Below are positions 39,887 through 50,949 of a DNA stretch of 64,000 bases, one piece after another. The notes under the pieces are model-generated. The model did no database searches. It worked only from the letters and a program-made list of their open reading frames with translations, and was not told the DNA's origin. Made by a program: the position numbers and the translations under genes. This DNA is from a virus. Each line of letters opens with the position of its first letter. Within the stretch, counting starts at the first letter, position 1. The DNA lies in the IMG/VR virus record IMGVR_UViG_3300032236_002285, positions 310,001 to 374,000 of that record; one strand, 5' to 3'.

Positions 39887-40063
39887 ATGAAACACTTAAA
39901 ACCAATAAAAGATAGAAAGGATCCATTGGAAGACTTTATACCAATAGGTAAAAAGGATTGTCAAGGTATGTGTGATCGTGAAGTTATAATGACTAAAGAT
40001 GGTCCGGTTATTGTGTGTCATGGATGTAATAGAATTGTAATGGATAATCGAAATAAAAAATGA
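39887..40063 (+). CDS. Small zinc-ribbon-like protein
   Basis: 58 residues with CQGMC...CHGC (CxxxC and CxxC), able to bind one zinc. Begins MKHLKPIKDRKD, which recalls the capsid-targeting peptide only in its first four residues. Overlaps the rhomboid gene start (ATGA). Confidence 0.65.
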   Translation: MKHLKPIKDRKDPLEDFIPIGKKDCQGMCDREVIMTKDGPVIVCHGCNRIVMDNRNKK

Positions 40064-40623
40064 TAAGTTTAACACCAATAGTAAAGCAATTACTCAGAAT
40101 TAATGTTATAGTATTTATTATAACATATTTTTTACATGAAATGAATATTCCAGTTGTTGAGAATTTTGTATTATTCCCAATGCAGTCTGAAAATTTTCAT
40201 ATCTATCAACTTGTAAGTTATATGTTTTTACATAGCTCGGTTTTACATATTGTTTTCAATATGTTGGGTTTAGTAACATTTGGTCCTGAAATTGAAGAAA
40301 GATTTGGTAGTAAGAAATTTCTTAATATTTATTTACTAATGGGTGTAATATCTGGTCTGTCACATGTATTATTTATTAATAACCCTGTTTTAGGTGCATC
40401 CGGTGCCATTTGGGGTATTATGATGATATATGCCTTATATAATCCTAATCACGTTTTTAATCTTTATTTCATCATACCAGTAAAAGCTAAATATATCATA
40501 AGTGTATTCTTCACTATAGAATTATACTTAGCAATCATTGGTAGTAATGATGGTGTTAGTCACATAGCACATGTAGGTGGAGCCTTAACAGGTTTATTAG
40601 TTTACATTTTTAATAGAAAATAA
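40060..40623 (+). CDS. Rhomboid-family intramembrane serine protease
   Basis: 187 residues, about six membrane helices. Catalytic serine S114 in LGASGAIWG, catalytic histidine H171 in SHIAHVGG, and the helix-2 signature LHIVFNMLG (H63, N67). It cuts membrane proteins within the bilayer. Very uncommon in phages; the target may be a host envelope or defence protein. Co-transcribed from the 39873 promoter. Confidence 0.92.
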   Translation: MISLTPIVKQLLRINVIVFIITYFLHEMNIPVVENFVLFPMQSENFHIYQLVSYMFLHSSVLHIVFNMLGLVTFGPEIEERFGSKKFLNIYLLMGVISGLSHVLFINNPVLGASGAIWGIMMIYALYNPNHVFNLYFIIPVKAKYIISVFFTIELYLAIIGSNDGVSHIAHVGGALTGLLVYIFNRK

Positions 40624-44487: not shown

Positions 44488-44988
44488 ATGATATCACTCA
44501 ATAAAGAATATAATCAAATTGTGAATCTTGTAAAGTTCAATGTGAATTTCAGTAAGTTTATTCATAATAATGAACTTTTGAGTCATGATCCTTCTTATAT
44601 TCTTGAAAAGTATAATCACTGGATTGGCTTTGAACCAAGGGTTGAGTATAAAATGTACACACCAGATGATATGATTACTTTTTTTCTGAAATATGGTAAA
44701 AGGTGGGCAACATATGATATGTATTGTAAAGTTGAACCAAGTATTTCTAAAAGAAAAAGTGGAGTTAAGAATATTTTGATGTATCTTTACTCAACTCAAA
44801 GTATGAACCTTATAACAATGGTTGATAAGTTTGAAGAATATATCGGTCCAATTAGTATGATATCAGATACTTCAAATAAACCGGGGCTACATCCTAAAAC
44901 AGAAGAGTTTGCTTTGAAGGTATTAGAAGAAAATAAAGACAATGTAAAAGTTGTTTTACGAGATATGAAAATTAGTAACTTAATATAA
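44488..44988 (+). CDS. Hypothetical protein upstream of RNase P RNA
   Basis: 166 residues, unrecognised; MISLNKEYNQIVNLVKF..., with a late segment HPKTEEFALKVLEENKDNVKVVLRDMKIS that looks like a helix-turn-helix. Its stop codon (44986-44988) lies within the 5' strand of helix P1 of the RNase P RNA, so mRNA and RNA gene overlap by a few bases. Confidence 0.7.
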   Translation: MISLNKEYNQIVNLVKFNVNFSKFIHNNELLSHDPSYILEKYNHWIGFEPRVEYKMYTPDDMITFFLKYGKRWATYDMYCKVEPSISKRKSGVKNILMYLYSTQSMNLITMVDKFEEYIGPISMISDTSNKPGLHPKTEEFALKVLEENKDNVKVVLRDMKISNLI

Positions 44989-45199
44989 ATTAAAGGACCT
45001 ATCGCTGGTGGTAACACTGGAGGAAGTTCGCGACTACAGAACCTAACACGGGAGAATAAGTAAAGAAATTGAAAGTTCGTTTGCACCGAGGAAGTAGCAA
45101 CACATACAGACCTAGAGTGTCGGTTCCTCTATGATGGTCGGGTTGTGGCATAGATAAATGATGGGATAAAACAGGATCGCGGCTACACTTGATTTATAT
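44983..45199 (+). ncRNA. rnpB: Compact RNase P RNA
   Basis: About 217 bases with the bacterial RNase P RNA layout. P1: 11 bp, 44983-44993 with 45189-45199. P2: CCTATC (44998-45003) with GATGGG (45160-45165). P3: CUGGUG-GUAA-CACUGG (45005-45020). Conserved AGGAAGU block 45021-45027. P4: AG-U-UCGCGA (45025-45033) with TCGCGGCT (45177-45184), keeping the universal bulged U at 45027. The 3' conserved block reads TAGATAAATG...ACAG (45151-45174), as in E. coli TAGATGAATG...ACAG. An inner GAGGAA/TTCCTC helix encloses ACAC/GTGT. Much smaller than the usual 330-400 bases. It would trim tRNA 5' ends with a host or phage protein subunit. Confidence 0.88.
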
Positions 45200-45243
45200 T
45201 ATTTTACTAAAACTTTTAAGCATATTTGATACTATAATTGAAC

Positions 45244-45813
45244 ATGGATAAAATTTGGATCGTTTATAACAAGGGAAGTTATAAAAAGAAATACAGGATA
45301 TTCAAAACTGAAGCCGATATGGCTAAGAATATCAGTGATAGTGACAGGTACACTATATTAGAATATGAGTTGAAGTCCTCAACCGTAGCATCTGACTACA
45401 TGAAATCTAAAGAAAGAGATACTCAACTTAGAACTATCTTAGGTGAGTTATCAGAACATGAAACTAATGGTCTTAAACTAATAGAGCTTTATGATGCTTT
45501 AGTTCCTGTTAATCCTAATGATAGATACAATCGTAAACAAAATCAGATAAACCATCTTAAAAAAATAGTATCTGATAAAAAAGCATTTGCTAACTATTTG
45601 GTTAACAACAAAAAACAATTCTTTCAAGTTTCTGATAGTTTAGAATGGGTATTGTCAATACTTAAATGTCATAACTTCCAAGATTATATTTATGATTCTG
45701 CAAGGTGGGATTCTGTTAAAAGGACTTATGTTAAAGTAGACAACGCATCTGATGCACTAAAGGAAAATTTCAAATTAGCAAAAGCCGAATTAAAAAAGAT
45801 TAAAAAGAAATAA
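45244..45813 (+). CDS. Hypothetical helical protein
   Basis: 189 residues from ATG 45244 (MDKIWIVYNKGSYKKKY), preferred to TTG 45238. Helical and lysine-rich, ending ELKKIKKK. It contains KERDTQLRTILGEL near residue 60, an internal look-alike of the C-terminal peptide. CATATTTG 15 bases upstream is a one-base variant of the host-type box. Confidence 0.7.
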   Translation: MDKIWIVYNKGSYKKKYRIFKTEADMAKNISDSDRYTILEYELKSSTVASDYMKSKERDTQLRTILGELSEHETNGLKLIELYDALVPVNPNDRYNRKQNQINHLKKIVSDKKAFANYLVNNKKQFFQVSDSLEWVLSILKCHNFQDYIYDSARWDSVKRTYVKVDNASDALKENFKLAKAELKKIKKK

Positions 45814-48750: not shown

Positions 48751-49575
48751 ATGGAAATTAATGCTATTCATCAAGGTGATTCTTTAGAGTTACTGAAACA
48801 ACTACCAGACAACTCTGTTGACTTGGTAATAACATCTCCACCATATTCAACATTAAAAGTTTATATAGATAATGGTGGAATCTTAGCCAAAGATTATGTC
48901 AATTGGTTTATCCCCTACTGTAAAGAAATAGAAAGAGTTCTTAAACCAACTGGATCCTTCATCTTAAATATCAATGATAAAGTTGAGAATGGCTTTAGAC
49001 ATCCTTATGTCTTTGATTTAATATCAGAATTACATAAACAAACAGGATTAAAAATGTTTGAGAGATTGTTCTGGAACAAATTAAAAAGTCTTCCTAATAG
49101 AGCCAGATTTGGTGATAGAGTAGAATACTTATTTTGGTTTGCTAAAGAAAAAGGATTCAAGTTTAATCTTGATGAAATGAGAACTGAGTATTCTGAGAAG
49201 TCTATTAAAAGAATGACTAAACCTCTAAAGAAAAGATTTGCCAGAACAGAAGGTGATGATAATTTAGAGTATAAAGATTGGGCTCCAAATCCAAAAGGTG
49301 CTTTACCAACTACTCTAGTAAATATCTCATCTGAATCAAAAAGAATTGCTGATAATCACGTTGCTGTTTTCCCGGTTGAACTTATTGAGTACTTTATTAA
49401 AGGTGCTACAGATAAAGGTGATTTAGTATTAGATATTTTTATGGGTACTGGTACAACTGCTGTTGCTTCTAAGAATCTTGGTAGAAATTGGATAGGATTT
49501 GAATTACAACAAGATTACATTGATGTGGCTAATAAAAGATTAGGTGAGTATGCAGAAGCGCAAGATTCTAAGTAA
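48751..49575 (+). CDS. Site-specific DNA methyltransferase (beta class, TSPPY)
   Basis: 274 residues. Catalytic motif IV TSPPYSTLK (residues 30-38), SAM-binding motif I DIFMGTGTTAVASKNLGRNWIGFEL near 230-255, in the order of the beta class. TSPPY favours cytosine-N4, but adenine-N6 cannot be excluded. No endonuclease partner is next to it, so it may protect phage DNA from host restriction. Confidence 0.9.
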   Translation: MEINAIHQGDSLELLKQLPDNSVDLVITSPPYSTLKVYIDNGGILAKDYVNWFIPYCKEIERVLKPTGSFILNINDKVENGFRHPYVFDLISELHKQTGLKMFERLFWNKLKSLPNRARFGDRVEYLFWFAKEKGFKFNLDEMRTEYSEKSIKRMTKPLKKRFARTEGDDNLEYKDWAPNPKGALPTTLVNISSESKRIADNHVAVFPVELIEYFIKGATDKGDLVLDIFMGTGTTAVASKNLGRNWIGFELQQDYIDVANKRLGEYAEAQDSK

Positions 49576-50859: not shown

Positions 50860-50869
50860 TAAAACAATT

Positions 50870-50949
50870 GCGGGTAGAGTCTAATGCGGCGTGGATGTCG
50901 CGGGCGCCTCTAAAACGTCTGGCATCGGGTTCAAATCCTGCTATCCGCA
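50870..50949 (+). tRNA. tRNA-like gene with CUA (amber) anticodon
   Basis: 80 bases. The acceptor pairs GCGGGTAG with CTATCCGC (8 bp, one G-U). T arm: CGGG/CCTG around loop TTCAAAT. D arm: TGCG/CGCG around a loop with GTGGAT. Anticodon stem GGCG(C)/(A)CGTC with one C-A mismatch, loop CTCTAAA, so anticodon CUA reading UAG. Variable loop of five or six bases. Odd points: about seven bases between acceptor and D stem, an 8/4 acceptor/T split, and CCA not encoded. It may be a suppressor tRNA or a decaying copy. Confidence 0.65.

Follow-up and report, generated by a model that had tools for sequence, protein, structure and literature searches.

A reduced RNase P RNA of bacterial type A descent in tRNA-rich phages and its predicted role in phage tRNA maturation

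RNase P is the RNA enzyme that trims tRNAs in nearly all cells and, to our knowledge, no virus has previously been reported to possess an RNase P RNA. The question that arises for the locus analyzed here is what occupies the 249-nt gap between two open reading frames (44488–44988 and 45238–45813) in a 64,000-nt stretch of viral DNA (hereinafter the window; positions 310,001–374,000 of the IMG/VR record IMGVR_UViG_3300032236_002285), for which a preliminary description had proposed a phage-encoded, miniaturized RNase P RNA. The source of the window is not in question: the contig carries phage terminase and gp23-type capsid genes and hence is a phage, a member of the T4 superfamily with a 476-kb genome.

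The gap houses an RNA gene of about 221 nt (44981–45201, on the plus strand, as are all of its elements) which extends from one strand of helix P1 to the other and was delineated from the match to a held-out covariance model (44996–45185) and a check of helix pairing. P1 (44981–44993 with 45189–45201) consists of 13 bp, not the 11 bp originally given, and its 5′ strand overlaps the stop codon (44986–44988) of the upstream open reading frame, as had been stated. When read against E. coli M1 RNA, the elements follow in the order P1, P2, P3, J3/4, P4, P5, the 5′ strand of P6, a short hairpin, P5′, J5/15, P15, P16, P17, the GGU of L15, P15′, J18/2, P2′, J2/4, P4′ and P1′. The 6-bp helix P2 joins CCUAUC (44998–45003) to GAUGGG (45160–45165), and P3 is a 6-bp hairpin with a GUAA loop (45005–45020); the pairing of both was checked and agrees with the preliminary description, all other named elements of which (the AGGAAGU block, P4 and the 3′ block) are likewise present and pair as claimed. 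J3/4 (AGGA, 45021–45024), which is invariant or nearly so in the relatives, precedes the 5′ strand of P4 (AGU, bulged U45028 and CGCGA; 45025–45033), and the latter pairs with UCGCG-GCU (45177–45184).

Several further elements, beyond those in the preliminary description, could be placed. P5 is formed by CUAC (45034–45037) and GUAG (45094–45097), and the P6 pseudoknot by GAACC (45039–45043) and GGUUC (45122–45126), the latter within L17. The region 45098–45147, supported by comparison of P15 and P16 pairing with shuffled sequences, comprises J5/15, P15 (CAC 45101–45103 with GUG 45145–45147), P16 (45109–45112 with 45136–45139), P17 (45113–45117 with 45127–45131), the loop of which bears the 3′ strand of P6, and L15 with its GGU (45141–45143). 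J18/2 (AGAUAAAU, 45152–45159) and J2/4 (ACAGGA, 45171–45176) are conserved single strands and P18 is absent; thus, the window's RNA contains all of the conserved single strands J3/4, J5/15, J18/2 and J2/4. A clear terminator for the gene was not found in the window.

The P4 helix with its bulged U belongs to the universal core of RNase P and here shows compensatory changes. In the same register, the window's RNA reads GAGGA-AGU-U-CGCGA and UCGCG-GCU where the E. coli RNA reads GAGGA-AAG-U-CCGGG and CCCGG-CUU, so that both partners differ in several pairs whereas the bulged U has been kept at the bacterial position, which bears out the earlier remark that this P4 differs from that of E. coli yet pairs. 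Across the family, the bulged U is retained in all 68 sequences and five of the eight P4 pairs show double-sided changes.

The folding energy of the single sequence is ordinary (z = −0.22) and, the fold alone being unremarkable, the identification of the RNA rests on homology and covariation. The helices were tested on 68 distinct family sequences (61 after dereplication), with shuffled partners as controls. In the relatives, P5 is 99% paired against 61% in the control, P15 97% against 63%, P16 99% against 64% and P4 99% against 85%, and the mean length of the P1 helix is 9.6 bp compared with 5.8 bp in the control. Because the position of P2 was picked by best fit, the full 6-bp P2 followed by GC, found in 55 of the 61 relatives, was compared with a shuffled control that yielded 4.4. 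For the P6 pseudoknot, the mean helix is 5.48 bp compared with 3.93 bp (sd 0.11) in shuffled sequences; this test confronted the strand after P5 with L17 only, an earlier wide-window version having given a weak result. The L15 sequence is CGGGUU in 57 and contains GGU in all of the 61 relatives.

In an alignment of 24 sequences constructed with MAFFT (A2), from which the window and its three closest relatives were left out, 92.2% of the pair cells of the whole structure are paired compared with 68.8% after shuffling and 34–44% when the structure was slid along the alignment. Covariation in homologues had been suggested as a check on the original proposal and is clearly seen: 29 of the 40 pairs in A2 change on both sides and P1, P2 and P4 exceed their controls. 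None of the 500 shuffles matched the observed values; the shuffles leave the relatedness of the sequences in place, and the sliding control preserves it too. A covariance model derived from A2, and thus blind to the window, matches 44996–45185 with a score of 151.1 bits (E = 4.5e-45), the second-best match inside the window reaching 10.4 bits, and a covariance model search of the whole 476-kb genome indicates that the RNA is single-copy. The RNA is 90–95% identical to that of one relative (L004), whereas the downstream flank is 61–78% identical; the gene is a conservation island relative to its flank. Taken with the anatomy of the core, the held-out match and the covariation uphold the original proposal of a phage-encoded RNase P RNA.

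The most pronounced departure from the bacterial enzyme concerns the specificity domain, the part of bacterial RNase P that binds the tRNA elbow. The interval between the P5 strands (45038–45093) spans 56 nt, compared with 164 nt in E. coli, and contains the P6 strand and a single hairpin as the remnant of this domain, in agreement with the characterization of the RNA as miniaturized; the class A specificity domain P7–P14, with the CR-II/CR-III T-loops of P11/P12, is missing. In the family, the spacing of the P5 strands ranges from 40 to 236 nt (median 53) and the total length lies between about 187 and 444 nt (median 229). The remnant hairpin includes P7 (45049–45051 with 45086–45088) and a conserved internal loop (GGAG ... 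CGUU), the two sides of which recur in 59 (a GGAG-type motif) and 47 (CGUU) of the 61 relatives, respectively. The support for P7 comes mainly from the pair counts in the alignment, given that the longest-helix test shows only a slight excess (4.51 against 4.15 in the control, sd 0.10). Six family members (L136, L146, L193, L222, L225 and L232) carry long, mutually unalike insertions in this hairpin. With the elbow-binding part missing, substrate recognition must differ from that of bacterial RNase P.

The preliminary description had named the lack of an Rfam RNase P hit above threshold as a result that would refute it, and for this sequence such a lack is indeed observed: none of the RNase P types in Rfam gives a match in the window, even at E = 10, and the window's RNA accordingly falls short of the gathering cut-off (100 bits) of RF00010, the bacterial class A (rnpB) model. 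When RF00010 was run on 44 phage records, nine members were matched at the family's locus with scores of 27–67 bits (maximum 66.7), below the cut-off, among them Stenotrophomonas phage DLP_6 (54.7 bits, E = 3.3e-17); in the alignments shown, the reduced relatives leave the P7–P14 positions of the model unmatched. The miss counts against the identification, but since RF00010 recognizes the relatives at the same place, it is ascribed to the limited reach of the Rfam models.

In viral records, RF00010 passes two full-length versions of the RNA (268 and 247 bits), and the phage covariance model R2 matches both (49 and 39.9 bits) as well as E. coli rnpB (18.1 bits, E = 1.3e-4). These full-length class A RNAs are located in the IMG/VR contigs G034 (L235, 2869–3210) and G020 (L236, 2793–3131), respectively. 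The RNA of G034 sits in a dense tRNA array and so probably belongs to a phage, and it may represent the ancestral full-size form; neither of the two phage markers tested was found in this contig. G020, in which no phage hallmark gene was confirmed, is retained as no more than a possible phage case.

Within class A, the window's RNA shares with M1 RNA the order and pairing of P1–P5, the P6 pseudoknot with L17, P16 and P17, P15 and the L15 GGU motif, for which pairing with the tRNA RCCA end is predicted, as well as J3/4, J5/15, J18/2, J2/4 and the register of P4 with its bulged U. It differs from the class in the lack of P18, the pairwise changes of the P4 letters, its location in a phage genome and its score below the Rfam cut-off. 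Covariation demonstrates the fold, and covariance models that match either way demonstrate the homology to type A; judged from the anatomy, these two-way matches and the short P5 interval, the window's RNA is identified as a catalytic domain of type A that retains only a vestige of the specificity domain.

Reduced RNase P RNAs occur elsewhere. The archaeal type T RNA of Pyrobaculum (Lai et al., 2010, cited in PMC8172020) is reportedly about 200 nt long, with the catalytic domain kept and the specificity domain essentially lost, and thus resembles the phage RNA in size, the two being set side by side by description only. Type T is defined by an archaeal-type core without P6, P16 and P17 and has archaeal protein partners; the phage RNA, in contrast, has P6, P16 and P17, and its genome encodes a bacterial RnpA (see below), which assigns it to the type A lineage of bacteria. 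Rfam thresholds also fail to pick up diverged RNase P RNAs of Candidate Phyla Radiation bacteria, two of which have lost even P12 in the specificity domain and about two-thirds of which are without the UGG/GGU motif (Lui et al., 2021; PMC8172020). Those RNAs are the products of chromosomal housekeeping genes, and the motif that most of them lack is retained in the phage RNAs.

The first relatives were retrieved with blastn in two huge phages (LR745206, 634 kb; LR756501/3, 735 kb) and in DLP_6 and further ones by motif scans of IMG/VR, in which a 15-base P4 pattern gave many chance matches that were filtered by structure and then by the covariance model. At E ≤ 1e-5, R2 recovers 147 of the 233 fetched loci (39, 77 and 31), some of them near-identical, and the RNA is present in at least 140 phage records other than the window's phage, including a 735-kb huge phage and the culturable isolate DLP_6. 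A scan of one genome from each of about 85,000 species of bacteria and archaea, which detects only the CGCG type of P4, yielded one match to the phage-type motif, in a 3-kb contig, so the CGCG-P4 type is essentially viral. A canonical rnpB in 'Microcystis phage MaAM05', with engB, fabI and mtgA nearby, looks like bacterial contamination and was excluded, as were Salmonella and Acinetobacter records. Such records in the 'phages' collection, which resemble bacterial chromosome, are probably mislabelled: MW495066.1 (112823–118018; L244), where rnpB has these three genes nearby, and AGRM01000002.1 (558810–559187), a Salmonella assembly.

The window's phage also encodes an RnpA of 99 aa, at 440379–440669 of its genome (G000; L234 3377–3676, minus strand, corresponds to about 440376–440676), the predicted partner of the RNA by analogy with the bacterial holoenzyme. 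It matches PF00825 (E = 1.9e-13) and TIGR00188 (48.3 bits against a cut-off of 38.35), its PDB matches, which include 1a6f, are RNase P proteins of solved structure, and like bacterial RnpA it bears the RNR-type motif, here SSKKFKRAVDRNRIKRLMKES; its gene is distant from the RNA gene. The neighboring open reading frame (L234 3755–4513) resembles ClpP protease by eye. LR745206 encodes an RnpA as well, 63% identical over 97 aa. Only two of the 69 records tested have an RnpA match, many of the other 67 being fragments, so that most relatives would depend on the host's RnpA or on a diverged version, or would do without.

The same genome encodes the head domain of a CCA-adding enzyme/poly(A) polymerase (378839–379207, plus strand; PF01743, E = 1.5e-31) and contains 59 tRNA matches; CCA is not encoded in any of the 17 tRNAs inspected, many of which are separated by 3–10 nt. 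All 34 carrier records tested contain tRNAs (2–74 matches each). In DLP_6 the RNA (105774–106022) is located within the tRNA array, and in G034 and others it is in or beside such arrays. The tRNA proposed at 50860–50949 of the window as a cleavage substrate gives a match below threshold only: the tRNA-like sequence (50870–50949) scores 24.4 bits against an Rfam cut-off of 29 and is missed by ARAGORN under default settings, and better substrates exist elsewhere in the genome, tRNAs being present for example at 255.7–258 kb. Its anticodon loop, CUCUAAA, could read CUA (amber suppressor). Relaxed ARAGORN settings produced hundreds of false tRNAs and were discarded. In DLP_6 (KU682439.2), the array includes tRNA matches where no tRNA is annotated and an unannotated tmRNA (L003 821–1094, plus strand; permuted tmRNA RF04321, 136.8 bits). 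The window itself also encodes a rhomboid-family protein (40060–40623; PF01694, E = 1.6e-31) and an N6/N4 DNA methylase (48751–49575; PF01555, E = 1.8e-48).

The combination of RnpA, a CCA-adding enzyme domain and 59 tRNA matches in one genome makes an RNase P that matures phage tRNAs the best reading, and we assign a probability of roughly 0.86 to the RNA being the catalytic subunit of such a type A-derived enzyme with a pruned specificity domain; the early suggestion that the phage processes its own tRNA thus appears well supported by genomic context. The missing specificity domain, along with the presence of the RNA without detectable RnpA in most relatives, would also fit a decoy that mimics the catalytic domain, titrates host RnpA and blocks host tRNA maturation while cutting nothing. 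We consider this improbable because a decoy would need neither the invariant bulged U of P4 (68 of 68) nor the L15 GGU, a motif for tRNA CCA binding, nor J5/15, and because the window's phage supplies its own RnpA and CCA enzyme domain and tRNAs are found in every carrier tested.

The loss of the elbow-binding domain could alternatively indicate an active RNase P whose main targets are structured phage mRNAs or host RNAs, and cleavage of non-tRNA substrates by RNase P is known (reviewed in PMC11143913); given that the carriers are rich in tRNAs, that the RNA often adjoins tRNA genes and that the GGU motif for CCA ends is kept, such a role seems about as improbable as a decoy. Hardly any credence can be given to a functionless, decaying remnant of a host rnpB acquired by the phage: the RNA is indeed shorter than bacterial RNase P RNA and scores under the Rfam cut-off, but some 60 dereplicated sequences display strong compensatory evolution, which already contradicts drift, the RNA is a conservation island, and the phage-type motif was matched only once in the bacterial and archaeal genome scan, in the 3-kb contig.

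Under the preferred reading, maturation of phage tRNAs, the RNA would descend from a bacterial type A RNA in which P7–P14 were pruned to a single hairpin and the catalytic domain was retained. Its protein partner would be the RnpA encoded by the phage itself or, in most relatives, that of the host. P4 with its bulged U, J2/4, J5/15 and J18/2 would form the metal-ion active site, the L15 GGU would pair with the 3′ RCCA end of the pre-tRNA, and the phage ribonucleoprotein would cleave off the 5′ leaders of the closely spaced phage tRNAs, with the result that the phage tRNA supply would not rely on the host enzyme alone. That the RNA is transcribed, binds protein and cleaves its substrates is inferred, and any escape from host control, also suggested in the preliminary description, would be speculative.

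A survey that covered 5.39 million open papers found no report of a phage-encoded RNase P RNA; given this coverage, priority is uncertain. RNase P goes unmentioned in the main texts of the huge-phage paper (PMC7162821) and the paper on the DLP6 genome (PMC5349666), and passages about phages in two RNase P reviews (PMC11143913; PMC6380272) describe none encoded by a phage.

It appears likely that a separate and widespread lineage of type A-derived RNase P RNAs exists in tailed phages, ranging from full-length to about 190 nt, in which the elbow-binding domain was lost or rebuilt, and that some huge phages encode a complete RNA-plus-protein RNase P together with a CCA-adding enzyme, a viral line of tRNA maturation tuned to viral tRNAs. 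Among tRNA-rich phages the RNA is common, with most of its members escaping current models. These natural minimal RNase P RNAs of about 190–220 nt show the extent to which a near-universal ribozyme can be pruned in nature with its core retained. The purpose of phage tRNA arrays is still debated; the putative enzyme described here would tie them to a dedicated phage processing activity.
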